A DNA stretch of 64,000 bases from Candidatus Woesearchaeota archaeon. GTDB taxonomy: Archaea; Nanobdellota; Nanobdellia; Woesearchaeales; GW2011-AR9. Location: contig JABHDY010000003.1 of the NCBI GenBank assembly GCA_018676855.1, forward strand, positions 212,136 to 276,135. The letters run 5' to 3'. Positions 3,000 through 50,492 of this stretch are shown piece after piece; the first letter of the stretch is position 1, and the number at the start of each line of letters is the position of its first letter. Below the pieces are notes generated by a model, which saw nothing but the letters and a program-made list of their open reading frames with translations, ran no database searches and was not told where the DNA came from. Made by a program: the position numbers and the translations under genes.

Positions 3000-3097
3000 G
3001 CCAGCGTCGCATAATTCGGTATTGCGCGGGTCTTGAACGAAAGACCAAAGCAAACCCGTGGCTTCGGCCATTCCCGGTTCAAATCCGGGCGCTGGCG
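3000..3097 (+). tRNA. tRNA-Ser(TGA) with a minimal ~15-nt intron
   Basis: Acceptor GCCAGCG pairs with CGCTGGC, and the discriminator is G as in serine tRNAs. The anticodon stem is CGGGT/ACCCG and the T arm CCCGG-TTCAAAT-CCGGG. A long variable arm (GGC TTCG GCC) marks it as class II. The loop reads CTTGAA, giving anticodon TGA. The extra 15 nt (about 3038-3052) lie after position 37; removing them leaves an 83-nt tRNA. The central splice helix is relaxed, with three of four pairs (CTTG against AAAG), so the exact boundaries are less certain than in the neighbouring tRNA. Confidence 0.88.
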
Positions 3098-3154
3098 CAT
3101 TTTATTCTAGAAAAAAAGAAATGGAAAAAAATAAATTAAAAAAAGTCTAAAAAA

Positions 3155-5467: not shown

Positions 5468-6658
5468 ATGGTTTTGAAAAACACAATCGCATCACTTATT
5501 TTTGCTGGTTCTCTTGCGCTTGCAGGTTCAACCGTTGCTCAGTCACAGAAACCAATTTCTTTTTCACCACAATCTTGTAAATCTACTTTAGAAACTCTTG
5601 TAAAATCTGGAATCACGGCAGGATTGCAGCACGATTCTCTCCTAACTGTAGGAGTTATACCACAGAAAGCACATATTGTTTCTCATATAACTGGAGGAAA
5701 TGATGTTGTAACAACTTGTGCAGATCAAAAACCAAAATATGCAACTATCGATAATGCTGTTGAAATGTATGTAGTTGTTGAAGCGTTACAATTTGGAAAA
5801 AAAGTGTATTTTACGGATGCACCATGTATAAACGTAAAAGGAAAAAGAAAAAGAGACATTGTTAAACCATGGCCATCAGAAGAAAAACCAGAAGTAAAAT
5901 GGTTTAAGGTTGAAGCATTAGAAAATGAGTATAGATATGTTTCAAAAAGGAATCCAATAACATACAAAGAAACGCAATGGCAGAACGGATGGAAAACCAG
6001 TGCTGACGTCCATCCAACATCGTTTGAAGATAAGTTTCCAATTGAACCAACAGGATTTGGCGTAATGAGATATAAAGTTGTAGTAGATATTAATGAAACG
6101 GAACTAGAAAGTCCAGGAAGTGAATCTATTAAACACGGAGCTATAAGTACAAAAGTTCATCAAGTTTCGTTCCGTCCAAATACGGGGTCGTGGGTAGATT
6201 ACCTTTTTGAGTTATTTAATACACCATACATATGGGGAAGTAACACTTCACAAATAGACGGCTTAATAGGATCTGACTGTGCAGACTTTGCAACGTACGG
6301 ATGGCGAAGAGCAGGGCACAAGAACCCATACACGTGGTCATATGGACTGCGAAAAAAACAACACACAGAAAGAATTGTGAAAATATCTTTTGATGTTGAT
6401 GATCAAGAAAGATTATTAGATTCTCAGAAAAAACTTATTCCATATGGAACGGATGAAAAAACTGTTACGGAAGGAGACATTATTTTTTTCCCACGACATA
6501 TTGCTGTTCTTTACAAAGACAATGGTAATGGTTATTTAGATTGTTCTGATCTTGTTCTTCACACATTATTTCATGAACCGACAATTGTTCCTCTTTGTGA
6601 AGCGTTTGGTATGCCTGACGAAGTTCTTCGGTGGAAAGAACTACTGCGCAGTAAGTAA
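5468..6658 (+). CDS. Secreted NlpC/P60-like cysteine peptidase or amidase
   Basis: The product is 396 aa. A signal peptide (residues 1-25, ending GSTVAQ) is followed by a beta-rich N-terminal domain of about 200 aa. A C-terminal domain shows NlpC/P60 hallmarks: YIWGS then GSDCADFATYGWRRAG (putative nucleophile Cys near 270) and GDIIFFPRHIAVLY (catalytic His near 345). Such enzymes cut peptide-linked cell-wall polymers in bacteria; an archaeon without murein would need another substrate, perhaps S-layer or host and neighbour wall material (inference). A TATA box lies about 25 nt before ATG 5468. The nearby 934-codon gene has a comparable Cys/His pair. Confidence 0.7.
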   Translation: MVLKNTIASLIFAGSLALAGSTVAQSQKPISFSPQSCKSTLETLVKSGITAGLQHDSLLTVGVIPQKAHIVSHITGGNDVVTTCADQKPKYATIDNAVEMYVVVEALQFGKKVYFTDAPCINVKGKRKRDIVKPWPSEEKPEVKWFKVEALENEYRYVSKRNPITYKETQWQNGWKTSADVHPTSFEDKFPIEPTGFGVMRYKVVVDINETELESPGSESIKHGAISTKVHQVSFRPNTGSWVDYLFELFNTPYIWGSNTSQIDGLIGSDCADFATYGWRRAGHKNPYTWSYGLRKKQHTERIVKISFDVDDQERLLDSQKKLIPYGTDEKTVTEGDIIFFPRHIAVLYKDNGNGYLDCSDLVLHTLFHEPTIVPLCEAFGMPDEVLRWKELLRSK

Positions 6659-6721
6659 TTCTGGAAAGATTTATAAATCAAAGTGCATTCACTCTTAAAA
6701 TCACATAAGGTTTTGATACGA

Positions 6722-7285
6722 ATGTCACAAAATATACGAAAAGTTATTTCAACAATTGGTCTTGCTGGTGTTCTTGCACTATCATCTGGGTATGATGTAC
6801 CTACAACATGTTTAACCAAAACAAAACTTCACCATTCTACACCACAACCTGATACAACATCTTCTGAGAGTACTGACCATGTAAAAAAAAGTAAGAAAAA
6901 AGATGAAAAAACTATTGAGGATTATCTTAATGTTCCAGAAAGTGTCCGTGAATTTAGAAAAAGATTAGACCATTCTCCGAATGCAGATGATTATGTTCTT
7001 GTCGAACTTGCACCAAGGATGGGGATATATATTCTAACACAAAAAGACGGATCAGACATTAAACATTTTGCAAAAACGTATTTACAATTCAATGACAAGA
7101 AATGCGATACCCTCATCCATAAACCGAAACTAGGATATGACGATTATATCACGTTTGCGTTTAATACGGTACATACACAAGTTCTTTATGGAAGAATAAA
7201 ATCATTAGCAGAAAGGATGGATCATGAGGGAGATAAAGTATTAACGCCGCTTAACATGATCAGTCCGTTACAAAAAAGAAAATAA
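6722..7285 (+). CDS. Putative secreted protein, function unknown
   Basis: The product is 187 aa from ATG 6722. The track's GTG 6683 lies only about 10 nt after a TTTATAAA box (6670-6677), too close to be transcribed. The N terminus has a hydrophobic segment (VISTIGLAGVLALSSG) that could be a signal peptide, then a Ser/Thr/Lys-rich linker and a folded region of about 110 aa with no motif I recognise. It follows the NlpC/P60-like gene on the same strand and ends 15 nt from the convergent 934-codon gene. Confidence 0.55.
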   Translation: MSQNIRKVISTIGLAGVLALSSGYDVPTTCLTKTKLHHSTPQPDTTSSESTDHVKKSKKKDEKTIEDYLNVPESVREFRKRLDHSPNADDYVLVELAPRMGIYILTQKDGSDIKHFAKTYLQFNDKKCDTLIHKPKLGYDDYITFAFNTVHTQVLYGRIKSLAERMDHEGDKVLTPLNMISPLQKRK

Positions 7286-7300
7286 AGTAAAGGTAATTAC

Positions 7301-10102
7301 TTATTTTGCTACTGCCACAACATCATTAGGTTTTCTAAATTTCCATCTAAATATTGAAACTAGTTCTTTCTTGTCCTTAAAACCAATCCGTTCAGATTTA
7401 AGTTGTTCAATACTTTTTAATCCTCCATGTTCGGACGAAGTTTGATAAATATGAGCGTCTATAGCAGGCATTGAACCGGCAAATTGTCGAATATATTTCG
7501 TTCCGCTTCCAGGTGGAATCTCAAGAACTTCTTTCACACCAATTGCATGACCATTATACAACAAAACATCGCCTGGTTGGATATCATCATACTCATCAAC
7601 AGAGAGAATATCAATTTGATCATCCCACACGCCACCTTTTCCACGTTCAATTCGTTTTGTCGCTAATTCATATGAACGTGTATTAAGATCATGCATCCAA
7701 TCTTCTACAAATATTTGTGGTTGTTCTGTATAATCACTTAAACATTTTGGCTTTGAACCGTAACATATGTCTTGACCTGTTTCTAATGCATGTTGATATG
7801 CCATCGCAAACTGTACGTCAATACATTGCTGATCGCCATTGATGAAATCTAACTGGAGCCTGTCAGTGTTTGAAATAAAAATGTCTGGGATATCAAGTTC
7901 TTCTCCACTAACAGTCTGGCCTGCACGTAATCGTAACACTTCATCTGTCCATTGAAAAATGTCAGTATTTTTTATAACTGGAAATCCCTCGACTCGTTCT
8001 TGATAACTTACAAACGAGTCACCATCTTCTGAACTTACAATTTGGCCCCATATACCAGACTTATGCTCACCAATATTCCCCACAAGACGATGATTAATAT
8101 CATCAAGATCATTCTGTTTAAATTCAAGATCGTCACGTTTTGGCTTGAATTCAGAATATTCTGGCATTTGTTCTAGAGACTTAATTTGTTCATCTACTTT
8201 TTTTATCTGTGATTCGAACTGTTCTACATCTCTAAAAGTGGATTTCTTTTCGGCATCTGTCCCATGCTGTTCTGCCCGACGCCATAATTGTAAAGCTTTT
8301 TCAAGTTCACCTTGCAAGTTATTAAGATCTTTCTCTAATGGTTCAAGTTTCCTTATGATTCTTCGTATTGCTGGCTTACTTTTAAGTTCTTCTTTATAGT
8401 CGTCTAAAAACACCATTACAGAAGCTCGTTCTTGTAACAATCCTTCTCTCTCTTCTGAAGTAAGTTCAAGATGATATTCGCCATCTACATTTAAGTCGTA
8501 TATTTTTGTTTCGCCTAAATCAGCTTTGTAATTGAAACGCATATCTGACGAAACTAATTCTTCAGAAGCAAATGTGTCAGCAGGGGAAATCAAGACATCT
8601 TCACCATCTGCTCGAAAAAGATATTTACCATTTGTTACAACACCTTCTCCAGACATTGTTACTTCAAGTGCAAGGGGCCGTCGTTGCGGCGACATTTTAA
8701 CGGCATCTATTGTTCCTCCTTTAGGTTCAAATTCTAACTGACTTTTTCTCTCTCGTGTTATCCATCCTTCATAGGAAAGTGTAAATTCTGGAAAAATTGG
8801 ATTTCCATCTTCCGCATTTGACGAGAAACCATCTCCACCTAACCAAATATGTTCATCTCCATAAATAAAATAATTACCATCTGGAATCATTCCAGGAATA
8901 ACAGAAATATATTCTTTTTCCCTCTGCTCTTTATAACGTAAATGAACGCCTTCACTACTGATAATGGTTGGCACATACGATTCTGTTATGGTACGTAATT
9001 TTGTTGATTCTGTTGTAATTTGTGGAACAATCTGTTTCAGTTCTTCTGTTATTTCTGCAATTCTTTCTGTTGTACCACTCTGTTTTGTTAATTTTCGTAA
9101 TTCTGTTTCAAGTTCTTTTTGACGTGATTTGAGTTCAGACACAATACTAAACTGATCTTTCCATTCCTGTTCAAACTCATCTGCTTGAGGAATCTTTGCC
9201 AATGCTTCTTGTTCATTAAAATCAATCTCGTCCAATTCAGCACTTTCAGCATATAATAATTGTACTGTTTTCCCTTTCTTTGTCTTATGTGTAAATCCTT
9301 TTACCGTTACTTCAGAACCACTTCCAACAAGAACTGGACGACCTTTTTCAAATGTTAACCTTCCTTTATGCAACATATCTCCATCAGGAAGAGACACAGA
9401 ATTTCCATAAATCATAATATCAGTATCAAAATCTACGCCAACAACATTTGCTTTAACAAGTTTTATTGTGTTAGTATCTTTTACAAATTCAAACGACGTA
9501 TCTTCATCAAAATGAAGACCGCCAAAACTTTCCATAATTCCCTTCATTTTTCCATTACCAAGAATAAACTTCCCATTTTGAATCATTTGACCAGCAAATT
9601 CTCCATCATCAAGCGTGAATTTTCCTTGAGAAAAACCAAGTGTACCAGAGAATGGCCATTCTCTTTTATCCCTATCAATGATAACAATATTTCCATCACC
9701 ATCAATTTGTAAACTTTCTTCAGTATTAGAAAAATCATAAATATTTACTTCTTCACCGCCGGCACCAACAAGAGTTCCAATAGAATTGTAGTTAAAAACT
9801 GAAGATGGCGCTGTAGAATCTATAGAGATTGTTATCCCTAAAGAATACATGAATCGTTCAAATGCGTCAGGAGCAGACATGATATTGAGAGAATTTGAAA
9901 AGTAATCGTATGCAATTTCATAATTTCCTCCAGAAAAATCTTGCATGTCTGAAACATAAGATGCTTGATTTTCTGGAGTAAAAAGAATAAAATCTTCTGG
10001 AGGAACAATTGGAACATGATTTTGTGCAATAACTAAAGATGTACTTAATACAATGATTACAAGTACCAAAACCATATTTATTTTTGTCAGTTTCATTTTC
10101 AT
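7301..10102 (-). CDS. Large secreted protein with beta-repeat and coiled-coil regions and an NlpC/CHAP-like C terminus
   Basis: The product is 933 aa. A signal peptide occupies residues 1-27. Residues about 90-290 look like short repeated beta strands (GKFTLDDGEFAG, NGKFILGNGKMKG), suggesting a beta-helix-like fold. Two coiled-coil stretches follow (about 310-370 and 565-670). The C-terminal 175 aa contain QQCIDVQFAMAYQHA (Cys about 760) and IQPGDVLLYNGHAIGV (His about 852), the Cys/His spacing and 'PGDV...GH' signature of NlpC/P60 or CHAP-type hydrolases. It is 2 nt downstream of the pilin-like membrane-anchored protein gene, so probably in one operon. Confidence 0.7.
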   Translation of the reverse strand: MKMKLTKINMVLVLVIIVLSTSLVIAQNHVPIVPPEDFILFTPENQASYVSDMQDFSGGNYEIAYDYFSNSLNIMSAPDAFERFMYSLGITISIDSTAPSSVFNYNSIGTLVGAGGEEVNIYDFSNTEESLQIDGDGNIVIIDRDKREWPFSGTLGFSQGKFTLDDGEFAGQMIQNGKFILGNGKMKGIMESFGGLHFDEDTSFEFVKDTNTIKLVKANVVGVDFDTDIMIYGNSVSLPDGDMLHKGRLTFEKGRPVLVGSGSEVTVKGFTHKTKKGKTVQLLYAESAELDEIDFNEQEALAKIPQADEFEQEWKDQFSIVSELKSRQKELETELRKLTKQSGTTERIAEITEELKQIVPQITTESTKLRTITESYVPTIISSEGVHLRYKEQREKEYISVIPGMIPDGNYFIYGDEHIWLGGDGFSSNAEDGNPIFPEFTLSYEGWITRERKSQLEFEPKGGTIDAVKMSPQRRPLALEVTMSGEGVVTNGKYLFRADGEDVLISPADTFASEELVSSDMRFNYKADLGETKIYDLNVDGEYHLELTSEEREGLLQERASVMVFLDDYKEELKSKPAIRRIIRKLEPLEKDLNNLQGELEKALQLWRRAEQHGTDAEKKSTFRDVEQFESQIKKVDEQIKSLEQMPEYSEFKPKRDDLEFKQNDLDDINHRLVGNIGEHKSGIWGQIVSSEDGDSFVSYQERVEGFPVIKNTDIFQWTDEVLRLRAGQTVSGEELDIPDIFISNTDRLQLDFINGDQQCIDVQFAMAYQHALETGQDICYGSKPKCLSDYTEQPQIFVEDWMHDLNTRSYELATKRIERGKGGVWDDQIDILSVDEYDDIQPGDVLLYNGHAIGVKEVLEIPPGSGTKYIRQFAGSMPAIDAHIYQTSSEHGGLKSIEQLKSERIGFKDKKELVSIFRWKFRKPNDVVAVAK

Positions 10103-10104
10103 GT

Positions 10105-11154
10105 TTATGATATTGTTAATAATAACAATTCTGAATCTGTATTACCATTTTTATCTTCCGCTTCAATTTCAACAAAATGTGATCCCTGTTGATCTTCTGA
10201 AGGAATAAATTGAATTAATCCTTTGTCATCAATATCGAACAAATCTGTATCATCATAGAATATAACATCATCTTTGTTTGTTTCTATTTGGTATTCAAAG
10301 AACACACCTGACAAAATATCAAAACTAACGATGTCTTCCATTTCTAGTTCTTCTTCATCAATCCGTGGAATTGATTCAAGAACAAATTCAAACGTAAAGT
10401 TCCTGTTTCTAATTTCTTTATTATTTTTGTCCCATAACGTGAACCATAAGATATCGTTTTCAAATGGACCTGTGTCATAAATAGGAAAAACTGTAATAAT
10501 AACATCTTCCTCGGAAGCCCATTCATCAATACATGTCAAACAGATATATCCATCTGTTTCTTGATGTTTCTCAACTATTTTATGTGCAACATCAAAAAAT
10601 TTGCGCATATTAACATCAAGAATATGAACAAAATCGTTTAGTTCTAATACAGTTATACCCTTTTGTATTGTAAGTGGATACTGTAGTTCAACAAGTATCT
10701 GATTACCAAAATTAACATTAACATCTATCGAACTTGCAATTATTTCATAACCTTCATCTTCATAAATAGAAAAGTCTTGAACACATTCAGGAAGTCTTTC
10801 TTTAATATAATTTTCTAATTCATGTTCCGCATTTTCTTCTGAGATAACCATTGAAGTTTCATCGGCATAATAATAGGGAAGAGTATCATCAAAGAATAAT
10901 ATTGAATAATCTAAGGGTGATTCCCAATATCCTCCCTGATGACCCGTCCGAATAACTCCTAGTTCTGTTACCTGTTCAAAACACGACTGGACAAAATTTT
11001 GGACTGAAGAACTGTAAGGGATACTGACAAGATCTTTATTAATAAAAACTGATTTTGTTGTATCTTGTCCTTTTTGAAAAAATATTAGACCAACAATTAA
11101 CAATAATACTATACCAACTATAATAAACACCGTTACTTGTCCCTTTTTTTTCAT
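10105..11154 (-). CDS. Membrane-anchored extracytoplasmic protein of the MKKKGQVTVFIIVG family
   Basis: The product is 349 aa. I start at ATG 11154 because it begins with MKKKGQVTVFIIVGIVLLL, a hallmark N terminus of a DPANN secreted-protein family; the 84-residue extension in the track is Ser/Cys-rich and antisense to the AglB N terminus, so it is spurious. One N-terminal membrane segment (about 5-25) anchors a large outer domain. Near the C terminus the sequence resembles Ig/cadherin-like strands (FVLESIPRID, EAEDKNGNTDSELLLL). It shares an operon with the large secreted protein downstream. Function is unknown. Confidence 0.7.
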   Translation of the reverse strand: MKKKGQVTVFIIVGIVLLLIVGLIFFQKGQDTTKSVFINKDLVSIPYSSSVQNFVQSCFEQVTELGVIRTGHQGGYWESPLDYSILFFDDTLPYYYADETSMVISEENAEHELENYIKERLPECVQDFSIYEDEGYEIIASSIDVNVNFGNQILVELQYPLTIQKGITVLELNDFVHILDVNMRKFFDVAHKIVEKHQETDGYICLTCIDEWASEEDVIITVFPIYDTGPFENDILWFTLWDKNNKEIRNRNFTFEFVLESIPRIDEEELEMEDIVSFDILSGVFFEYQIETNKDDVIFYDDTDLFDIDDKGLIQFIPSEDQQGSHFVEIEAEDKNGNTDSELLLLTIS

Positions 11155-11263
11155 ACTTCTATTTAAAAGAATAGGGAGGTATAAAAATGTTGCTGATAAA
11201 TGTGCTTTGTTCTGGAACATAATAAACTTTATAAACGACCCACCATTTTGAAGCCCAGAGGGC

Positions 11264-14200
11264 GTGCAAGTGGAAGAAGACAAACAAGAACGTAAAAAAG
11301 AAGAACAGGACAGTAATGATGACATTCTAGAAGGATTTTCAACCGAACCAACAACTGAAGAACAGAAACCTACTGAAGAACCTAAAGAAGAACATTCTGA
11401 AGACACTCATGATTCTGAAGAAGAAAAAGAAAAAGAACCTGTTGAAGAACAACCGGAAGAAGAGCAACAAGATCAACCAGAAAAGAAAGACGTTCCTCAA
11501 GAAGTTGAAGAAAAAAAAGAAAAAGTTGTTGAAATTGACGAACCACACCATACAAAAAAAGAACGTGACGACATTTTTAGTGAAGAAGAAACCGAAAAGG
11601 ACGTTTCATTTAGTTTCGCTGATGTCAAACATAAAACAACATCATTCTTTAAAAATTTAAAATCAAAAGAAAAGTCAAAAAATAAATCAACAGAATCTCA
11701 CACAAAAAAGAAAGATGATTTTGCAATAGATACAAAAAAAGTTGTTGCATGGACACAAAAAAACAAGAAATGGTTAATTCCACTTGCGCTTATCCTTCTG
11801 ACCATATTCATTTCATCATATTTTAGAATGGCTCCAGCATATCTTCCGATTACAGATGATTGGGCAGAAAGTCAGGTTCACTCTTTTTATAGAAATCAAA
11901 TAACACAAAGTGTTAATCAACAATATCCAAACCTACCACAACAAAATAGGGATGCGTTGATTGAAAAAGAATTTCAATCATTATTGCAGAATAATAAAGA
12001 TCAAATAAAAGTGGATAAAGAACAAATGTCTGCACAATTTAAATCGCGATTACAAGACGAAAATGGTGACACATATTTACTCGCAATAGACCCATATTAC
12101 TGGTTTGCTGAAGCACGGAATTATGTAGAATATGGAGAGTTGGGAGATAGTTATAATGAGGAAGGAGAACGGATATTTAGTTTACGAAATGGAAGAGAAG
12201 GACGAGGAACAACAAACATTCCGTTTCATACAGTGTTTGGTGCATGGGTATACAAAATAACGAGCATTTTCAATAGAGACGTTTCACTAATGAGAGTTAT
12301 GTTTTTCATACCCGTTATTATTATTGGCTTATCGCTTATTCCCGCATTTCTTTTAGGAAGAAAAGTTGGTGGAAATGTAGGAGGATTTTTTGCCTCAACA
12401 ATTATAGCTATAAATGCTGCACTTTTAGGTAGAACGCCAGCAGGTTTTTCTGATACTGATGCATATAACATATTATTTCCATTATTCATTGTATGGCTAT
12501 TCTTTGAAGCTTTTGACGCAAAAACGATAAAGAAAAAGATTATGTTTGGTAGTCTTGCAGGTTTTATCAGTGGTTTGTATGCAGTAACATGGTTAGGATA
12601 CTGGTACATAGTTATGTTTATCGTTGCAACCATCATCGCATTTTTGACATATAACATTCTAAAAAACATACAAAATAAAGAAAAAAAACCATTATTCAAA
12701 AAAAATGTTAAAGATACAGTCATCGTTGGAGGAATTTATTTTATTACTTCAGCAATATTTGTTTCAATTTTTGCAGGATTCTCAAAGTTTAAGATACTAT
12801 TTACGGCACCGTTCAAAGCAACGGCAATAAAAGAAGTTGCAGTTGCAAAAATATGGCCAAATGTTCTTACAACAGTTGCAGAATTTAACGAAACGGATTT
12901 AAGTGGAATTATTGCGCAAATGGGTGGAAAATTATTATTTTGGATCGGACTCATAGGAATTGTTATATTATTGTTTAACACAAAAAAAGAAAAAATGAAA
13001 AATGTGTGGTACTTAATTGGATCGGGCGTATATTACGTTATCATACTTTCACTTAAAAGTTCGCTTAATAATCCGATAACGTTTATTATTCTAATAAGCA
13101 TTCCCGTACTTGTTGGCATTATGAAAGTGTTATACTTCAAAGAGAATAATACAAACATAAAGTATGCATTACTTCTTATCATTTGGATCGCGGGAACTGC
13201 ATATGGTTTCACAAAGGGAATGAGATTTTCAATCCTAATGGTCCCTGCATTTGCTATTGCATTTGGTATCACGATAGGAGTTTCATATAAAGCTGCAAGC
13301 GAATGGCTTTCAAAAGCTATCCATATTGATAAAACAATTTCAAAAGTTATTCTTATTATTGTGTTCTGTTTACTTTTAATAACACCATTAAACGATGCAA
13401 AAAATACGTCATTTAACGAAATACCAACAATGAACGACGCATGGTATGATAGCCTAACTAAAATTAAAGATAGTACACAAGAAGCAATTATAACGTCATG
13501 GTGGGACTTTGGTCATTGGTTCTATTCAATAAGTGGTCAACATGTTACGTTTGATGGTGCTGATCAGGGAGAAAGAATACATTGGGTTGGAAAGACGTTG
13601 CTTACGGATGATGAACAAGTTTCCGTGGGTTTATTACGTATGCTTAATTGTGGACAACAAAAACCTGTGCACGTTCTTGAAGAGTTCCTTAACGGAGATG
13701 CTGTTCGTGCAGTTGATATCATGAATGATATGATGGTTGTTAATGATAAGACAAAAGCTGTTAAAATTCTACAAGATGAGGGCCTTACTACTGCACAAAT
13801 TGCTGATATTATCGCAATAACATACTGTGATGATCTTCTTGACCAATTTTACATTACGTCAGAAGATATGGTTGGGAAAGGTGGTGTATGGGGCCATTTT
13901 GGTAGTTGGGATTTTGAAAAAGCTGCAATGTATCAAGCAGTAAAGCGTGACGAACAAAATGGAAAACAAACACTTATGGACAAGTTTGGTTTAACAAGCA
14001 GTGAAGCAGACCAGCAGTATTATGAAATAACTACCACAGGTGCAGACCAATGGGTTGCACCATGGCCAAGTTACCAGGGCCAGTTTGGATGCGACAATCT
14101 GGGAAACAAACTTGAATGCATTGTTGGTGTTGGTGGCGGAAATGCCCTTATAGAAATTGATAAAGGAACGCATGAAGCATTTATCCAAGGAAGTAACGGA

Positions 14201-37330: not shown

Positions 37331-38755
37331 ATGATAGAAATTAATTCATTTCTTGTTATGAACAATTTTTCCATTAAAGATACAATGCGTATCATTGGAA
37401 ATAATGGGTTAGGAATAGCATTCGTGACAAATAATGAAGGAACATTATTGGGAACTGTTACTGATGGCGATATACGAAAAGCGTTAGGAAACGGTACAAG
37501 TATCAGTACTGATGTTGAACAAATTATGAATACAAATCCGATAACCGTTCAAGAAGAATTTACGTCACACGATTTGAAGAATAACGTTCATCAAAGAATT
37601 AAAGGATTCTCACGATATTATACATTAAAAGTTCCAGTCGTAGATAATAACAAAAAAGTTGTCAATATTGTTATGTATAACCTTCACGATAATACGTACG
37701 AACTTTTGAAAGAATTTAACTCGCATCAAACAAAAGATGTTAAGAAAGTTCTTGTTGTTGGCGGAGCAGGATATATCGGTTCAACGCTATGTCATCAACT
37801 TATTGAGAAGGGATACGATGTTCGTGTGCTTGATAAAATGACGTTTGGCCATGGTTCCATTTCAGAATTACAAAAATTGCCTAACTTTGAATTACTTGAA
37901 GGAGATTTACGTAACATTACAACTATAACGTCTGCTTTAGAAAATATTGATGCAGTTATTCTGTTAGCAGGAATTGTTGGCGATCCAGCAAGTTCAAAAA
38001 TTCCAAAAGAAACTATTGAAACAAATTATTTTGCAACACTTGCATTAGCGAACGCATGTAAATATTATCAAATTAACAGGTTTGTATTTGCGTCAACATG
38101 TAGTGTCTATGGATCAAGTTCAGGTATTGTAACGGAAGAAGATGCATTGAACCCATTATCGTTATATGCTCGGTCAAAGATTGATTCTGAACAAAGTATT
38201 CTTAATCTTAAAGATACAAACTTTGCACCAACTATGTTACGAATGGCAACAGTGTACGGTCTTTCACGACGAATGAGGTTCGACCTTGTTGTTAACATTT
38301 TTGCGTTAAAAGCGGCAACGGGCGATACAATTTCAATTTTTGGTGGCGATCAATGGCGACCATTTGTTCACGTGGAAGATGCAGCATCAGCATACATTAA
38401 ATGTTTAGAAGCGCCATTAAAAGATATTGCAGGTGAAACGTTTAACATTGGAGCAGAAAATTATACAATTAATCAATTGGGAGAATTTGCGAAAGAATTA
38501 TTTCCTGAAGCAACAATAGAAAAAACTGATAAGCAAGTTATTAAGGGAGCGTTAGACTCACGAGATTATAAAGTATCGTTTGCAAAAGCAAAACGTATTA
38601 TTAAGTTTGAACCACAACGTACCGTTAAGAAAGCGATGTTAGACATAAAAAACGCTATCGAACAAGGATCTCTTGACAATTTTAACGATAAAGCGTATTA
38701 TAATGTTGAAATGGCAGAGAAAAAAAGTGTGCCAGATAATTCAAAGGAGATATAA
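37331..38755 (+). CDS. CBS-pair domain fused to an NAD-dependent sugar epimerase/dehydratase (SDR)
   Basis: The product is 474 aa. Residues 1-125 are a CBS pair (GIAFVTNNEGTLLGTVTDGDIRKAL, PVVDNNKKVVNIV). Residues about 135-450 are an extended SDR with VVGGAGYIGSTL (NAD binding), a Ser/Tyr/Lys active site (STCSVYG, LYARSK) and FVHVEDAASAYIKCL. The SDR part probably epimerises or dehydrates a nucleotide sugar. The CBS pair likely senses adenosine nucleotides. A GGTGA site ends 6 nt before ATG 37331. The CBS pair resembles those usually attached to sugar nucleotidyltransferases in nonulosonate clusters. Confidence 0.85.
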   Translation: MIEINSFLVMNNFSIKDTMRIIGNNGLGIAFVTNNEGTLLGTVTDGDIRKALGNGTSISTDVEQIMNTNPITVQEEFTSHDLKNNVHQRIKGFSRYYTLKVPVVDNNKKVVNIVMYNLHDNTYELLKEFNSHQTKDVKKVLVVGGAGYIGSTLCHQLIEKGYDVRVLDKMTFGHGSISELQKLPNFELLEGDLRNITTITSALENIDAVILLAGIVGDPASSKIPKETIETNYFATLALANACKYYQINRFVFASTCSVYGSSSGIVTEEDALNPLSLYARSKIDSEQSILNLKDTNFAPTMLRMATVYGLSRRMRFDLVVNIFALKAATGDTISIFGGDQWRPFVHVEDAASAYIKCLEAPLKDIAGETFNIGAENYTINQLGEFAKELFPEATIEKTDKQVIKGALDSRDYKVSFAKAKRIIKFEPQRTVKKAMLDIKNAIEQGSLDNFNDKAYYNVEMAEKKSVPDNSKEI

Positions 38756-38757
38756 CA

Positions 38758-39273
38758 ATGATAATTTGGATAACTGGCATGTCAGCATCGGGAAAAACTG
38801 CAATAGCAAACGAATTATACCCATTACTTAAAAACAAACATAAACATACAATTCTTCTTGACGGCGACGTTTTTAGGGATATGCATAAAAATGATGTTGA
38901 CCATTCAATGGAAGGACGAAAAAAAAACGGTGACAGAATTTGTCAGATGTGTAAGTTCTTAGACAAACAAGAAATTAACGTTATTTGTGCGTCCCTTGCT
39001 CCGTTTCACGAGATTAGAGAATGGAACAAAGCTAATTATAATAAATATTTTGAAGTTTTTTTAGATGTACCACTTAACGTTCTTGTACAACGAGATCCTA
39101 AAGGATTGTACAAAATGGCACTTAATGGAGAAATGAAAAATATGGTTGGAATAGATTTACCATTTCCACCACCACGAAATCCAGATTTAGTAATTAATAA
39201 TATTGGTGATAGGACGCCAAAATCTATTGCAGAAGAAATATTTTCTACTGTCGAACCTAATTTAGAAAACTAA
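38758..39273 (+). CDS. cysC: Adenylylsulfate kinase-like protein
   Basis: The product is 171 aa. It has the P-loop GMSASGKT, LDGDVFRDMH (family DGDxxR), GRKKNGDRI and the highly typical RDPKGLYKMALNGEMKNMVGID.PF.PP segment of APS kinases. APS kinase makes PAPS, the sulfate donor. Relatives in capsule clusters can instead phosphorylate other nucleotide-linked substrates, such as CDP-phosphoramidate in Campylobacter. Two sulfotransferase-like genes nearby favour PAPS, but no ATP sulfurylase is in the window. GGAGAT precedes the ATG by 6 nt. Its last 4 nt overlap the convergent gene. Confidence 0.8.
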   Translation: MIIWITGMSASGKTAIANELYPLLKNKHKHTILLDGDVFRDMHKNDVDHSMEGRKKNGDRICQMCKFLDKQEINVICASLAPFHEIREWNKANYNKYFEVFLDVPLNVLVQRDPKGLYKMALNGEMKNMVGIDLPFPPPRNPDLVINNIGDRTPKSIAEEIFSTVEPNLEN

Positions 39274-40283
39274 CCATAAATATGTTTAATTCTTTTCTCA
39301 TACTCTTCTACAAGATCTTCCATGATTGAAATACATTCTGGAGATGCTTTTGACCGAATGTCTTGTTCTTTCTTCTCTCTATCTTCAGGTTTGATAATTC
39401 GTGGGATTCTCCCCTTTGTCAATGCTTTGCGTAATGATCCTGTTCTTGTTCGTCCAATAAAATTTTCCATTTTAACAACGTCTGGTTCAGGATTCGTTGC
39501 AAATGTATCAAATCCAATAAATAACACTTGTTTCTTCTGTTCATCTGAAAGACTCTCATAACCTTCCCACATTCTTTGTAATCGTACAGCACACATTTTA
39601 ATAACCTTATCAGTTGGAGATTTACATGCCAGGTATTCTTCTTCCCAGCCGTAACAGTACCATGGAACAAGTTTTTTTCCGTGAAGAATGTTTAATGAAA
39701 ATATTCGTGGATCGTCGGCTTCTCTTTTTCCATATCCTCTTCGACAGTTGCCAAAAATTGAATCGATTGGATGCCGTAACATTTCTATGATACGTAAACT
39801 TTTACCGAACGCGTCAAAGTAAATACTATTAATGCCAAGTATGTCATGTGTTTGAACTTGAAATATTGGTTTTTCTTTTAGAATTTTTTCAACAACAACG
39901 TCTCCCTCAGGAGCAAATAATCGTTTGAGGTATTTGAAAGGTTTTATTTGGTTAAACACACCAGAGTTGTCACTTTTTCTAAAATTGATACTTCGAGATA
40001 TCATTGATTCGTACAACTTTGTTTCCATTTCTAAACGAAGGCAGGCAACTGCTGCATCTCGTGTAATTTTTTTTAGTTTGTATAACCGTGGTATTCTATC
40101 AAAATTAGTTTCTATCCGGTGTAGTTCAACATTTTCAAGACTTGTTAAAATGGGACTTAACATCGTTTTTCCAGTCCGCGTAATACCATCTATTAACACA
40201 ACGGGTTGTGTGTAAAAATTCTGTCTGTAGAGTTTTACTCGTTTTGTATCTGGTTCTTTTGATGTTGTTTTCGATATTGTCAT
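39270..40283 (-). CDS. Sulfotransferase-like P-loop protein
   Basis: The product is 337 aa. The N-terminal VLIDGITRTGKTMLSPIL is a P-loop corresponding to the 5'-phosphosulfate-binding loop, and RIIEMLRHPIDSIFG near residue 185 matches the R-xP-x-D of the 3'-phosphate-binding motif. The C terminus (EQDIRSKASPECISIMEDLVEEYEKRI) is shared with the paralogue at 53 kb. It may sulfate the glycan with PAPS. A GxxxxGKT loop also fits a kinase, so the class is likely, not certain. It is the last gene of the minus-strand operon. Confidence 0.65.
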   Translation of the reverse strand: MTISKTTSKEPDTKRVKLYRQNFYTQPVVLIDGITRTGKTMLSPILTSLENVELHRIETNFDRIPRLYKLKKITRDAAVACLRLEMETKLYESMISRSINFRKSDNSGVFNQIKPFKYLKRLFAPEGDVVVEKILKEKPIFQVQTHDILGINSIYFDAFGKSLRIIEMLRHPIDSIFGNCRRGYGKREADDPRIFSLNILHGKKLVPWYCYGWEEEYLACKSPTDKVIKMCAVRLQRMWEGYESLSDEQKKQVLFIGFDTFATNPEPDVVKMENFIGRTRTGSLRKALTKGRIPRIIKPEDREKKEQDIRSKASPECISIMEDLVEEYEKRIKHIYG

Positions 40284-40319
40284 GTTATTTATTTATTAGT
40301 TTATTAGTTTATTTATTTA
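40284..40319. repeat. AT-rich low-complexity repeat (TTTATT units)
   Basis: Successive TTTATT/TTTATTAG units fill the short spacer between the PseI stop and the sulfotransferase start and run into the last codons of PseI. It may be a slippage-prone tract; no ribosome binding site is visible in it. Confidence 0.4.
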
Positions 40320-41361
40320 CCAATTCCCAATTCAGTGGCGTTCCTTTCGTTACGTCTTGTGTAAACGTTTTACCAAGAATTTCTGGAAGATGTTGAGGAT
40401 GTAATCCCTGGCCAGGCCGAATGGACCGAACATTTTCTTCTGTAATAATTTCTCCCTCAGAAACGTCCTTAACAATGAATAATGAACGTAAGAAAATTCG
40501 TTCTGTTTGCATTTTGTCTGTTAATTTGTACGTTCTTTCACCTAACGCTTTCTCTACGTCACGAACAGCATTGACCATAGTTTTAAATTCAGTATAATCT
40601 AACGAAAATGCAGAGTCTGGACTTTCCATTTCTTTATTGAGGATGAAATGTTTCTCAACAACCTTCGCGCCAAGAGGAATGGATGCAATGGGAACAGTTG
40701 TACCCAAAGAATGATCGGAGACTCCAAGTATAACATCGAACAGTTCTGCTAAATGTTCCATTGACCGTAAATGAACATCTTCAAGAGGTGTCGGATATGC
40801 AGACACACATTTTAAAAGAATGATTTGATCATTACCAACCCTCTTGCATGCGTTAAGTGCTTTTTCAATATCGTCTAATGTTGCTGCACCCGTTGCAATA
40901 ATCATCGGTTTTCCTTTTGATGCCATATATTCAATCAATGGAATGTCGGTTATCTCTAACGATGCAAGTTTGTACGCAGGAACATTCATTTTTTCTAAAA
41001 AGTCAACTGCAGTTTTATCAAACGGTGATGAGAAACAAATTAATCCTATACTTTCTGCATACTCCTTAAGTTTAGGTTGCCAGTCCCATGGTGTGTACGC
41101 TTTCTGAAACAAACTGTACAATGTTTCTCCATCCCATAACGTCCCATGTTTAATTTTAAAATACCCTTTATCAGAATTCATAGTAAGGGTATCTGCTGTG
41201 TACGTCTGAAATTTAATAGCGTCTGCTCCCGCGTCCTTTGCTGCTTTAATTGTCCTCATTGCAAGGTCATAGTCTTGGTTATGATTAGCAGATAATTCAG
41301 CAATGATAAATGCTGGCTGTCCTTCACCAATTTCACGTCTTGCAATGGTAACTTTTTTCAT
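40309..41361 (-). CDS. pseI: Pseudaminic acid synthase-type NeuB enzyme
   Basis: The product is 350 aa, full length. The TIM barrel begins FIIAELSANHNQDYDLAMRTIKAAKDAGADAIKFQTYTADT, characteristic of PseI rather than NeuB or LegI. The C-terminal 60 aa are a SAF/antifreeze-like domain (RSLFIVKDVSEGEIITEENVRSIRPGQGLHP). The enzyme condenses PEP with a 6-deoxy-diacetamido-hexose to make a nine-carbon sugar. It lies 4 nt after the GAPDH-like gene and is the central marker for the nonulosonate pathway here. Confidence 0.92.
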   Translation of the reverse strand: MKKVTIARREIGEGQPAFIIAELSANHNQDYDLAMRTIKAAKDAGADAIKFQTYTADTLTMNSDKGYFKIKHGTLWDGETLYSLFQKAYTPWDWQPKLKEYAESIGLICFSSPFDKTAVDFLEKMNVPAYKLASLEITDIPLIEYMASKGKPMIIATGAATLDDIEKALNACKRVGNDQIILLKCVSAYPTPLEDVHLRSMEHLAELFDVILGVSDHSLGTTVPIASIPLGAKVVEKHFILNKEMESPDSAFSLDYTEFKTMVNAVRDVEKALGERTYKLTDKMQTERIFLRSLFIVKDVSEGEIITEENVRSIRPGQGLHPQHLPEILGKTFTQDVTKGTPLNWELVNK

Positions 41362-41365
41362 GTTC

Positions 41366-42430
41366 TTATTTTCCTCTCGAGATACGCTCTGCCGCCATAT
41401 GGTTTACCAAATCATAGAACCTGTTCGTCGAAGCCTCGTTATCAAAGTATCCAGGAAGATGAACATCATTTCCTCGAACTTGAATAGTATCTTCAGTAAA
41501 AACTGTTGAACTTGGTGTACAAAGATACCTATTTGAATCTCCAACATCAACTTCTTCAATCCCATATAATCCTTGAAGCTGTCCACCATGCACTGCATTT
41601 CTTAATGCTCCAATAAACGCATTACGATCAACTGGGTCTTTCAAGCCGAATCGGAACTTTATAGCCGAGACATTTGTCATTGGGCAAACAACATAATCAA
41701 CAAGAAATCTATCTGGAGCAAGGAAAGATAACAAGTTTGGTGCTACCACTTCAAGTGTACACTCTTTTCTATACAGAACCTGATTTTTTGGATCTTGTAA
41801 TTTATATTCAGGCATGTTATGAGCAACACTAACATCTGCATCCTCAACACCAAATGTATCATTCATCCATTTGGCTAATGGAACAAACGCGTTTACAGTA
41901 CAAGAACCATACGACGTCACCAAATCTGTATCAAGATTAAAGTCTTTATGATTAAATCCAAATACTAATGTTTTATCTGCCTGAGGAGCAGTTGCAGAGA
42001 TAACTAAGTGTTTAGTTCTTCCTGTAAGAAATTTGTGTCGTGCTTCATCTGAATATTCAGCATGTCCACCTGAACATTCAAACACCATGTCTGGCTGACC
42101 AATCCATGGAATTTCATCAAGAGATTTTGCACCAGTTCTTGTAAATAAGATTTGTCTGTTACTTGTTCCATGAGGTGTTGAGATGAGAAGTCTGTCCCCT
42201 TCAACTTTAAATTTGTATTGAAAGAAATTAACAGCAGGATCTTTTTTAATCATTCTTGCCGCATCATCAATAGTGAGAACCGGATCATTAATATATTGTA
42301 TATCAAAAAATGCACTGTCTCGACGGTCAAGCCAATGTTTCAACATGTGTAATCCAAATCGTCCAAAGCCATTCATACCTGCTACTAATTTTCCTTCTAA
42401 TCCCGTTGTTGGGTTTTCTGTATCTGTCAT
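41366..42430 (-). CDS. GAPDH-like phosphorylating dehydrogenase homologue
   Basis: The product is 354 aa. The Rossmann start is MNGFGRFGLHMLKHW, and the catalytic-Cys loop SYGSCTVNAFVPLAKWM matches GAPDH SCTTNC..P with the second Cys replaced by Ala. An AHNMPEYKLQD segment may hold the partner His. This is the bacterial-type fold, not the archaeal type II GAPDH. GGAGGAGAT precedes the ATG. Being inside the nonulosonate operon suggests it oxidises a phosphorylated sugar or aldehyde for that pathway rather than serving glycolysis (inference). Confidence 0.75.
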   Translation of the reverse strand: MTDTENPTTGLEGKLVAGMNGFGRFGLHMLKHWLDRRDSAFFDIQYINDPVLTIDDAARMIKKDPAVNFFQYKFKVEGDRLLISTPHGTSNRQILFTRTGAKSLDEIPWIGQPDMVFECSGGHAEYSDEARHKFLTGRTKHLVISATAPQADKTLVFGFNHKDFNLDTDLVTSYGSCTVNAFVPLAKWMNDTFGVEDADVSVAHNMPEYKLQDPKNQVLYRKECTLEVVAPNLLSFLAPDRFLVDYVVCPMTNVSAIKFRFGLKDPVDRNAFIGALRNAVHGGQLQGLYGIEEVDVGDSNRYLCTPSSTVFTEDTIQVRGNDVHLPGYFDNEASTNRFYDLVNHMAAERISRGK

Positions 42431-42451: not shown

Positions 42452-45004
42452 TTATTGATGTACATTACCGATAGGTTCAGTTTCTATCTGTAACGTTTCG
42501 TGTACTTTATCTTCAAGTTTGTTAAGTTCGTCAAACGTATCCGCGACGATAATAATATGATTAATTCTACTTGCACAGTTTCTATAATCTTTCACTTCAT
42601 CACCTATTTTCATTGAATGAAAGATATTTCTCACACCAGGCATATTTTCTATTTCTTCTAACCCTTTTATATTTCTAATGATTCCCGGTTCTGGAAAAAC
42701 TGATGTTGTCTTTGACCATTTCATCCATCTGGAAACTAAATCTCTAGGGTCCATTTCTTTCCCAGCAGCTATGTCTATTGTTGCTTTAACGATATCTATA
42801 CCTAATGAATACGGTTTACGATATTGAGAGTCAAAACCGCCAGATGTTCGTGCAGTTACTTCAATAATTCGCGGTTTCCCGTCAACAATGATTAAGTCTC
42901 CTTTAAACGCACCATTGTCAACACCTAACGCAGTTGCTGCTTTTTCCATTAATGTGTACATGTCTGCCTGCATTTTCTCAGGTAACAATGATGGTGTTAA
43001 TGAACCTACTTGTACAGAATATTCTTGCACGGGACGAAATTGTCTGTCTGAAACGCCTGCAGGAAACAGTTTTCCTTTATACATAACAGTATCAACACTA
43101 TATTCGTCACCTTCAAAGAATTGTTCAATAATTGCTTCTTTCCTCATGAAACAAAATTTCATTGCATCGTCAAACGCAGCAACAATTTCTTGATCAGTTG
43201 TTCCGTCCCGTAAAACTTTCACGCCACGACTTGCAGAATTGTCTAACGGTTTAATGATGCACGGATATCCAACTTTCTGTACAGCGTTTAATGCTTCCTC
43301 AACAGTTTTTGCGGATCCAAACTTAACATAATCAACATTCTTTTCGTTAAGAACAGTTCTCATCTTAACTTTATCATTACAATTTAATGCAGCTTCAGGA
43401 TCAATTCCTGGTAAGCCAGCAGCATGAGCAGCCATTGCAACGGTATATTCAACATCGCACCCTTGTGTATAGACAGCAACAATCTTATTTTCAGCTTTCA
43501 ATCGTTTCGCTAACTCAACATGCGCACCAATATCTTTTGTGCTAATAGCAAATGCTTCGTCCGCTAATTTTGCAGCCTCAGATTCTATGTTCATGTCTGT
43601 TATATATACATAATATCCTAATTCTTTTGCTTTTTCGACAGCAACTTTTTGTAAAACTCCTGCCCCAACAATTAAAATTCCTTTTTGTTCCATTATAATC
43701 TCCTCTTTATTATTTTTAGTATGAATATCATTATCTGGATGTTGTATAAAGTACTGTTCTATTTCTTTATAGGAACGTACAATACCATCTACAACGTGAG
43801 AATGAAGCAAATCTTTATCATTATTAATATTATGAAAGTCTAATAGGATGGTTGAAAACCCAGCATTTTTTGCTCCAAATAAATCAATATCAATATCGTG
43901 ACTTATGTACACACAATCGTGTGGAAAAACTCCTAATTGTGCAGCACAATCAAGATATGGTTGTTTGTTTGGTTTTGGTGTTTCATACGCACAAACAATG
44001 ACATCAAAATACGTGTTAATTCCTACATTCTTTATTCTATCAAGTTGAATATCATGTTTTCCGTTCGTTACTATCCCTAATTTATATTTTCCATGTACTG
44101 ATTGAAGATATTCTAGAACGCCAGGTAACAATTTCTCATCAACTTTCTGTGTAAGAAAATTGTCAACTATTGATTTAACATAACTTTGATCTTGGTTTAA
44201 CTTTGTCAGGACATCATTAACATGAAATTTGTATTTTGAACCTTTATCAGTATAGACTTGCCAGAAAAATTTTCCAAAGTTAGTTAATCCTAACTCTTCC
44301 TCAGCAAAAATGATTGTTTTTTCCCACCGTTTATGAATCCAGGATTCTTCATCAACTAACGCATCATCAAAATCAAATATGATAGCTTTAATGCATTGTA
44401 TGTCATCTTTTATATTTCTTATTTCTTTTACAATTTCACTTTTTTCCTGAGAATAATATTCTTCTCGCAGTACAGAATGAAGTATCGAATCATGAAATTT
44501 GTTCTTCTTGTACACATGATTACGTAATACACCTTCCTTCACAAATCCTACTTTTTCAAGAACCGCAAGATGTTTATCTCTAAAACAATGTGTTTCAGAA
44601 ACAAGTCTATTATGATGTAATCGTTCAAATCCATACTGAAGTAACATGCGTAGTACATCTTCAAATAGTGTAAGATACTCTTCTGACCCCTCAATTATTT
44701 CTGTATCAAGTAAAAATGATAATTCTGCCCGTGCAGAGATAGAGTCAATATTGGTAAAACCACAATATCCAATAAACTTACCATCCACATTTACAATTGA
44801 AAATAGTATTTCTTTGTTTGAGTTTGAAATTCGTTTCCAATACTCCTCCTGATTGTGTGAGGTTAACGGCTTAGACTGTCGTAAAACTGCAATCTGTTCG
44901 TTACGCCATTTCTTAATCAGTTCCATATCAGAATACTCTAACGAAGAAAGGTAACATGATGATGATGAGATTATCTTTTCTCTCATGGTGTTATTATCTC
45001 TCAT
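42452..45004 (-). CDS. GNAT acetyltransferase - HAD phosphatase - ATP-grasp triple fusion
   Basis: The product is 850 aa from ATG 45004, 5 nt after GGAGGT and overlapping the FkbM stop as ATGA. Residues about 15-185 are a RimJ/PseH-like GNAT domain (LVSETHCFRDKHLAVLEKVGF). About 205-420 is a HAD-IA phosphatase like N-acylneuraminate-9-phosphatase (FDFDDALVDE, GIVTNG, YISHDIDIDLFGAKNAGF; the usual Thr after DxD is Ala). About 438-850 is an ATP-grasp ligase (IIKPLDNSASRGVKVLRDG, RIIEVTARTSGG). An internal GAGGAG plus ATG at 43693 starts exactly at the ATP-grasp domain. Together they could acetylate, dephosphorylate and ligate a group to the sugar. Confidence 0.88.
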   Translation of the reverse strand: MRDNNTMREKIISSSSCYLSSLEYSDMELIKKWRNEQIAVLRQSKPLTSHNQEEYWKRISNSNKEILFSIVNVDGKFIGYCGFTNIDSISARAELSFLLDTEIIEGSEEYLTLFEDVLRMLLQYGFERLHHNRLVSETHCFRDKHLAVLEKVGFVKEGVLRNHVYKKNKFHDSILHSVLREEYYSQEKSEIVKEIRNIKDDIQCIKAIIFDFDDALVDEESWIHKRWEKTIIFAEEELGLTNFGKFFWQVYTDKGSKYKFHVNDVLTKLNQDQSYVKSIVDNFLTQKVDEKLLPGVLEYLQSVHGKYKLGIVTNGKHDIQLDRIKNVGINTYFDVIVCAYETPKPNKQPYLDCAAQLGVFPHDCVYISHDIDIDLFGAKNAGFSTILLDFHNINNDKDLLHSHVVDGIVRSYKEIEQYFIQHPDNDIHTKNNKEEIIMEQKGILIVGAGVLQKVAVEKAKELGYYVYITDMNIESEAAKLADEAFAISTKDIGAHVELAKRLKAENKIVAVYTQGCDVEYTVAMAAHAAGLPGIDPEAALNCNDKVKMRTVLNEKNVDYVKFGSAKTVEEALNAVQKVGYPCIIKPLDNSASRGVKVLRDGTTDQEIVAAFDDAMKFCFMRKEAIIEQFFEGDEYSVDTVMYKGKLFPAGVSDRQFRPVQEYSVQVGSLTPSLLPEKMQADMYTLMEKAATALGVDNGAFKGDLIIVDGKPRIIEVTARTSGGFDSQYRKPYSLGIDIVKATIDIAAGKEMDPRDLVSRWMKWSKTTSVFPEPGIIRNIKGLEEIENMPGVRNIFHSMKIGDEVKDYRNCASRINHIIIVADTFDELNKLEDKVHETLQIETEPIGNVHQ

Positions 45005-45792
45005 TGTATACCTCCAACTTTCTTTGCCCATGTCGTTAGATGTTGAGGGAACCCCGTCTTTGTTACATATCCCATTGATAACAAAAGACGTTCAACTCCA
45101 ATAAATGTTATAGCACCATCAACCTTATGATAAGAAGCAATTGCAACATGAACATTGCTATCTGAAAGGTTACGTGAACATCCTTTAAGTGCTTCAATCT
45201 CTGCACCTTCAATATCCATTTTAATAAAATTAACATGTTGAATTTTTAATTCTTTCAACCGACTATCAAGTTTGATAACGGACGTTAGAGGAAGGTGTGG
45301 TTCTTCTTCTGGATCAAGAATAAATGATGATTCGCCACCCTGCATCTTGAATCGTAATTGTGTATTGGTACTCCATAATCCCTCAGAAAAAACATCTACG
45401 TTTGTAATACAATTCAGTGCAATAAGGTCAAGCAATTCTTCACGACCATTTGTATCTGGTTCAAACGCTAACACTTGGCCAGTATCACCAACAAACTTTG
45501 ATGCTATCAATGAAAACACACCGCCAGATGCACCAGCATCAATAACAACATCATTTTTTTGTGGCCGATGATATTTCAAGTAACCCTTAAGAACCGTTGC
45601 AAGACTTCCACACGGATTTTTTCTAAATTTGAGAGTAAAGTTTGGAAATGTAACATAGTACATATTCTCTTTAAAAGAAATGGTGTACACATTTTTTCCA
45701 AAAATATTCTGATACACACATCGTACTTTATGTTTAAAAACTGAGTCTGGAACAAGTTGTCCGTACAATTTAGCAAGCCTGAATTTTGTCAT
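45001..45792 (-). CDS. FkbM-family methyltransferase
   Basis: The product is 263 aa. SAM-binding motif VVIDAGASGGVFSLIASKFVG and LAFEPDTNGREEL, then the FkbM signature HVNFIKMDIEGAEIEALKG near residue 195. Family members O-methylate sugars and polyketides. ATGA overlaps at both ends lock it translationally between the cytidylyltransferase fusion and the triple fusion, so it probably methylates the same nonulosonate or glycan. Confidence 0.88.
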   Translation of the reverse strand: MTKFRLAKLYGQLVPDSVFKHKVRCVYQNIFGKNVYTISFKENMYYVTFPNFTLKFRKNPCGSLATVLKGYLKYHRPQKNDVVIDAGASGGVFSLIASKFVGDTGQVLAFEPDTNGREELLDLIALNCITNVDVFSEGLWSTNTQLRFKMQGGESSFILDPEEEPHLPLTSVIKLDSRLKELKIQHVNFIKMDIEGAEIEALKGCSRNLSDSNVHVAIASYHKVDGAITFIGVERLLLSMGYVTKTGFPQHLTTWAKKVGGIQ

Positions 45793-50042: not shown

Positions 50043-50492
50043 TCACCTATTTTTTGTATTCCATATTTCTTTTCCAAAGAAATCCCATGCGAACCGAAAG
50101 TCGTCACCTTTTGACTCTTCCAGTGAACTTGATGAGAAAAAAATGATTGTTGTATTATCTTCAAGAGCTTTAAAACCGTTAGCATACCCAGCAGGAATTT
50201 TAAGAATTGACGGTTTTGCACTGTGTAAAATATATGTTGTGGGAAGGCCAGTAAGCTGTCTGTTGTCCATTTTTGAACAAATTATTTTTACACAGCCCTG
50301 TGGAACAAAAACGTACTTTGTTTCTTTTTCATGGCCATGAAATGCTCGAACAACATTATTTGCCACATTTTTTACTTGATAAAACCGTTTTATACCGCTC
50401 GATATAAAGTCAAAATCGTTCACAAAAGAAACACTTCCCCTATCATCGTACGCAATGCCACCTTCAAATAATTGTATCTCGTCATGCATCAT
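50043..50492 (-). CDS. RmlC-like cupin (sugar 3,5-epimerase or ketoisomerase family)
   Basis: The product is 149 aa. A cupin barrel with DDRGSVSFVNDFDF, VVRAFHGHEKETKYVFVPQGCVKI and LKIPAGYANGFKAL, the order of elements in dTDP-4-keto sugar 3,5-epimerases; the His of AFHGHEK corresponds to the catalytic base region. It is shorter than typical RmlC (about 180 aa) and may be a one-step epimerase or isomerase. It is the first gene of the eight-gene minus-strand operon. Confidence 0.75.
   Translation of the reverse strand: MMHDEIQLFEGGIAYDDRGSVSFVNDFDFISSGIKRFYQVKNVANNVVRAFHGHEKETKYVFVPQGCVKIICSKMDNRQLTGLPTTYILHSAKPSILKIPAGYANGFKALEDNTTIIFFSSSSLEESKGDDFRFAWDFFGKEIWNTKNR

Follow-up and report, generated by a model that had tools for sequence, protein, structure and literature searches.

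A Woesearchaeota operon for a sialic-acid-like surface sugar appears to encode acetyltransferase (GNAT), HAD phosphatase and ATP-grasp ligase domains in one protein, which raises the questions of whether this protein is a true fusion, whether its parts act in succession on one substrate, and what the ligase contributes to the sugar. In the window, the stretch of 64,000 nucleotides analysed here, the minus strand holds a single stop-free frame of 850 codons that runs from the ATG at 45004 to the TAA stop at 42452, while the plus strand of 42452-45004 is closed by numerous stops. The longer open reading frame 42452-45031 on the minus strand also has 0 internal stops, but its ATG at 45031 lacks a Shine-Dalgarno sequence (+3.3 kcal/mol), whereas the ATG at 45004 has a strong one (-10.7 kcal/mol) and overlaps the stop codon of the FkbM gene as ATGA. 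Because of this overlap and the strong Shine-Dalgarno sequence, we assign the start to 45004. Pfam identifies Acetyltransf_4 at residues 19-174 (2e-16), HAD_2 at residues 208-387 (3e-22), ATP-grasp_4 at residues 579-724 (4e-14) and LAL_C2 at residues 770-843 (4e-16), with the HAD domain extending over about 205-388, ATP-grasp and LAL_C2 together over about 542-843, and the ligase part beginning at Met438. In an AlphaFold model the HAD and ATP-grasp domains are confident and the GNAT domain is poor, with weak linkers at 160-202 and 426-438. The domain search that the preliminary description had suggested therefore matched every expected family, and its view of three enzymes in one uninterrupted frame of a DPANN archaeon holds. 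The features of the locus are listed in Table 1.

Table 1. Coordinates of the fusion gene, its parts and the surrounding operon in the window.
Feature	Position	Strand	Evidence
GNAT-HAD-ATP-grasp fusion ORF, 850 aa, TAA stop	42452..45004	-	ORF, Pfam, Shine-Dalgarno
GNAT domain, aa 1-190, Acetyltransf_4	44435..45004	-	Pfam; weak PseH
HAD-IA phosphatase domain, aa 198-400; motif I FDFDDALVD at 44377-44351	43805..44413	-	Pfam, motifs
ATP-grasp ligase domain with LAL_C2, aa 438-850	42455..43693	-	Pfam, motifs, folds
Putative internal ribosome-binding site AAAGAGGAG and ATG 43693, at the ATP-grasp boundary	43691..43710	-	Shine-Dalgarno; kept in sister species
RmlC/FdtA-like cupin, first operon gene	50043..50492	-	Pfam
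PseC and aldo/keto reductase fusion, 709 aa	47917..50046	-	Pfam, TIGR03588
CTP_transf_3 and class-III aminotransferase fusion, 699 aa	45789..47888	-	Pfam
FkbM-type methyltransferase	45001..45792	-	Pfam
GAPDH homologue	41366..42430	-	Pfam
PseI	40309..41361	-	Pfam, TIGR03586
Last operon gene, without a Pfam match; resembles a sulfotransferase by inspection only	39270..40283	-	inspection

Both the window and its closest relative come from metagenome-assembled genomes (MAGs), so the joins could in principle be an assembly or frame artefact that unites separate genes. This explanation is extremely improbable: PCYB01 (G001), the second genome of the genus and a Woesearchaeota MAG of a separate species, has GNAT, HAD and ATP-grasp in the same order and in one frame, with the same joins and with domains 74-89% identical to those of the window, and both the coupled starts and the low ratios of nonsynonymous to synonymous change also argue against it. 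Between the two species pN and pS are 0.13 and 0.76 for GNAT, 0.17 and 0.67 for HAD, and 0.06 and 0.57 for ATP-grasp, and all three domain segments are under purifying selection. In contrast, the 42-residue linker between HAD and ATP-grasp is 21% identical and near neutral (pN 0.49, pS 0.57). The frame in G001 is longer, at 1338 aa, with a B12-binding and radical-SAM domain between GNAT and HAD (L005, about 10950-13300). The FkbM gene of that species is broken, with residues 1-83 and 226-262 left in different frames and residues 84-225 missing, and the B12-radical-SAM domain may have replaced it. The triple fusion is thus real and well supported; its architecture is new, and fusions of this kind were already known.

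The fusion gene lies in an operon of eight minus-strand genes that overlap or are separated by short gaps, in the order RmlC-like, PseC-aldo/keto reductase (AKR), CTP transferase-class-III aminotransferase (CTPtr-AT3), FkbM, the fusion, GAPDH-like, PseI and a final gene. PseC- and PseI-like enzymes and a CMP-transferase-like enzyme confirm the preliminary assignment to a nonulosonate locus: the PseC part scores 452.5 bits against TIGR03588 (cut-off 423.5) and PseI scores 486 bits against TIGR03586 (cut-off 340.25). Compared with the standard PseBCHGIF pathway of Campylobacter and Helicobacter, the operon shares PseC, PseI and the CTP transferase, and its GNAT domain could fill the part of PseH. 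It differs in that genes are fused and in the addition of an AKR, a class-III aminotransferase, a HAD phosphatase, a GAPDH homologue and, as the preliminary description had recognized, an ATP-grasp step foreign to that pathway. Moreover, no PseB match above cut-off and no PseG match were found in either genome of the genus (93% and 83% complete), so that no complete pseudaminate pathway was recovered beside PseC and PseI, the identity of the sugar is uncertain, and plain pseudaminate is not established. By inspection, the TDE motif of dehydratases is missing from two short-chain dehydrogenases (SDRs) of the host, so that no 4,6-dehydratase was identified. In the GAPDH homologue both catalytic residues, Cys and His, are retained, but another residue apparently aligns with the Ps-site Arg, and the substrate of this enzyme may therefore differ from a standard aldose phosphate. 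Elsewhere in the window, an epimerase-type SDR is fused to a CBS domain (37331-38755), and tandem tRNA genes of 126 and 98 nt (2862-2987 and 3000-3098, Rfam) perhaps contain introns.

The GNAT domain scores 39.3 bits against PseH (TIGR03585), below the curated cut-off of 93.1. The HAD domain is a generic IA phosphatase, above the cut-off of TIGR01549, and keeps all catalytic motifs (DFDDAL, TNG, KPNKQ and HDIDID, providing DxD, T/S, K and the acidic motif IV). The ligase domain has an ATP-grasp fold with the conserved Lys and the KGD and EV-R motifs, and these motifs and its fold match those of ATP-grasp carboxylate-amine ligases, from which amide formation is predicted. Its nearest solved folds include 4dim and the L-amino-acid ligase BL00235 (3vot), with target TM-scores up to 0.86. 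It shares LAL_C2 with L-amino-acid ligases such as BL00235 and BacD (3vmm) but is only about 20% identical to them, occurs in a nonulosonate context joined to HAD and GNAT, and misses the cut-offs of the BacD and dapdiamide L-amino-acid ligase equivalogs (51-54 bits against 850 and 41-42 against 840).

Genome contigs were scanned with a ligase alignment of four rows, which recovered 31 loci. Clade 1 (47-89% identity; tree support 100/100, to be read with caution given long branches) comprises the window, G001, a Nanoarchaeota, a virus-like contig, Prochlorococcus AG-409-P01, Gastranaerophilales, a Prevotellaceae and one further bacterium. In each of the six cellular members without the fusion, the gene immediately upstream of ATP-grasp encodes HAD. 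Directly downstream is PdxA in 5/6 (identified by Pfam and NCBIfam at L019 only) and, in Prochlorococcus, a GAPDH homologue as in the genus of the window. Five of these six loci have PseI-like genes close by, and in Prochlorococcus such genes lie elsewhere in the genome. In the Prochlorococcus single-cell contig (L018) the HAD, ATP-grasp and GAPDH genes are 56-76% identical to the archaeal ones, which reflects either recent transfer or contamination. Tailed-virus contigs (L014/L022 and, from IMG/VR, L081-L084) carry the same ATP-grasp among terminase, portal and endolysin genes; of the four contigs from IMG/VR, three have PdxA adjacent or nearby, and L081 additionally has NeuB and GNAT. Clade 2 is more distant (27-31% identity), with a TPP enzyme or transketolase, an SDR and often NeuB and PseG-like genes as neighbors, and lies beside flagellins in several cases.

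These comparisons bear on the proposal that the three enzymes act in sequence on one substrate. Across 371 genomes from the phylum, only this genus was found to have the triple fusion, and homologs outside the genus are always split at the joins (7/7 other clade-1 loci in the genome scan), whereas both species within it are fused. The adjacency of HAD and ATP-grasp in unfused relatives makes it plausible that these two act together. GNAT has no such tie to them; it is separated from the other two by the radical-SAM domain in the sister species and, in a genome of the same family (G004), is part of a 1271-aa GNAT-CTPtr-MocA-AT3 fusion. Other in-frame fusions of nonulosonate genes occur as well. 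The same operon has two more two-enzyme fusions (CTPtr-AT3 and PseC-AKR), and related genomes encode CTPtr-PseG-GNAT (931 aa), NeuB-CTPtr (592 aa), CTPtr-PseG (L043 and L045), CTPtr-AT3 and NeuB-Epimerase_2 proteins, with fusion sites in other genomes of the phylum at L091:6756-10568, L092:4166-6958, L093:6835-8610, and L090:1125-3434 and 6474-8666. These differ in combination from GNAT-HAD-ATP-grasp, and they make the triple fusion less surprising and argue against taking it as proof of consecutive steps. Two candidates were set aside, a 2999-aa frame in L023 because of masked sequence (N) and a 708-aa open frame in G258 because of an in-frame stop between CTPtr and AT3.

The variety of these fusions would also fit an origin mainly as a by-product of tight, overlapping operon genes whose stops were lost in a small genome, with the domains sharing a pathway but neither acting consecutively nor channeling, and with ATP-grasp also made alone from its old start. 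Met438 is the only internal ATG of the fusion with a strong Shine-Dalgarno sequence (-7.2 kcal/mol), a strength reached by only 3.5% of 1696 internal ATGs and by 13% of 188 likely starts over about 456 kb of the main contig of the host genome. Both species retain the motif within the fusion at the same spacing, AAAGAGG-N8-ATG. In the unfused relative L019, the start of ATP-grasp overlaps the stop of HAD as ATGA, preceded by a comparable AAAGAGG motif. The ligase therefore probably keeps, or kept, its own start, and may also be made alone from Met438. The divergent, near-neutral linker with its low pLDDT also agrees with a by-product. In contrast, neither species has a separate start for HAD at its join, which places HAD obligatorily on one chain with GNAT or, in the sister species, the inserted domain; the domain order has also persisted over the divergence of the two species. 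In the remaining two fusions of the operon, no internal Shine-Dalgarno-ATG was found at the junctions to AT3 and AKR. On balance, we regard a by-product as possible but doubtful.

An ATP-grasp enzyme in a nonulosonate locus was already known. In the Shewanella oneidensis sfmABCDE operon, the ATP-grasp_4 protein SfmE accompanies a PseI-like enzyme and a methyltransferase; the flagellin carries a mono-N-acetyl Pse-like sugar with an O-methylated moiety of 236-264 Da, and migrates at lower mass in an sfmE mutant (PMC3765264). This was the only relevant paper among few matches in a literature search for ATP-grasp with pseudaminic or nonulosonic acid. The sfm genes are separate, with SfmE accompanied by a TPP enzyme and an SDR in place of the HAD and PdxA/GAPDH of clade 1. 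This arrangement is the synteny of clade 2, to which SfmE is likened by synteny only and whose identity to the window is about 30%; a cluster of TPP enzyme or transketolase, SDR, ATP-grasp and NeuB is absent from the window, which has HAD and GAPDH and falls in a separate clade. Substituents of Pse in Campylobacter include a hydroxyacyl group (di-O-methylglyceric acid) and N-acetylglutamine (PMC3068675).

From protein families, synteny and the Shewanella precedent we infer, with a confidence just short of even, that two functional blocks of a surface-sugar operon have been fused, specifically in this genus, into the one protein, and we likewise infer the substrates and the order of steps. In the first block, which would act with the product of the adjoining downstream dehydrogenase gene (a GAPDH homologue in this operon, PdxA in most relatives), HAD would remove phosphate from a phosphorylated precursor to give a small carboxylic acid, and the ATP-grasp ligase would activate this acid as an acyl phosphate and couple it to a free amine of a pseudaminic-like sugar or of a precursor of that sugar. 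The GNAT block would acetylate another amino group in a PseH-like role, and methylation of the product may follow, by FkbM in the window and by B12-radical-SAM in the sister species. Possibly the attached group is aminoacyl or similar, as first suggested, rather than plain acyl. Intact motifs, the 3vot and 4dim folds, the conserved neighborhood, purifying selection, SfmE and the Campylobacter substituents count for acyl attachment. The missing PseB and PseG matches and the GNAT score below the PseH cut-off count against it, as do the lack of an obvious common acid product of GAPDH and PdxA, the former seemingly without the Ps-site Arg, and a link between SfmE and clade 2 that is one of synteny only.

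The usual products of PdxA reactions are amino-ketones or DHAP. The dehydrogenase product might thus supply an amine, such as amino-propanediol, with the ligase amidating the sugar-acid carboxylate or forming a free dipeptide-like compound; LAL_C2, the L-amino-acid-ligase fold and the class-III aminotransferase of the operon are consistent with this, the GAPDH variant fits it poorly, and we judge it improbable. Epd and PdxA are also enzymes of the pyridoxal phosphate pathway, and the PdxA or GAPDH(Epd)-like neighbor might simply supply this cofactor to the PLP-dependent aminotransferases, with no part in side-chain synthesis. That seems very unlikely, given that each locus holds only one step of the pathway and that virus contigs have ATP-grasp and PdxA with no aminotransferase seen. 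In favor of the cofactor role, C. jejuni pdxA is reported to affect flagellar motility (PMC3735588).

The proposed acyl attachment by HAD and ATP-grasp points to a side-chain step in the synthesis of a sialic-acid-like sugar for which no assigned enzyme was found. The widely shared and so far undescribed module of HAD, ATP-grasp, PdxA/GAPDH and PseI, present in part in tailed viruses, merits more attention than the fusion itself. More speculatively, and with rather more doubt than belief on our part, it may be a horizontally mobile cassette for a new N-acyl, possibly methylated hydroxyacyl, nonulosonate, common to DPANN archaea, bacteria and partly tailed viruses, and welded in this genus into one protein of several enzymes whose methylation enzyme has also been exchanged, FkbM giving way to an inserted B12-radical-SAM domain. 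HAD, ATP-grasp and dehydrogenase form a testable module whose synteny makes it recognizable across archaea, bacteria and viruses, and the fusions described here suggest that genes of surface-sugar operons have been fused repeatedly in Woesearchaeota.
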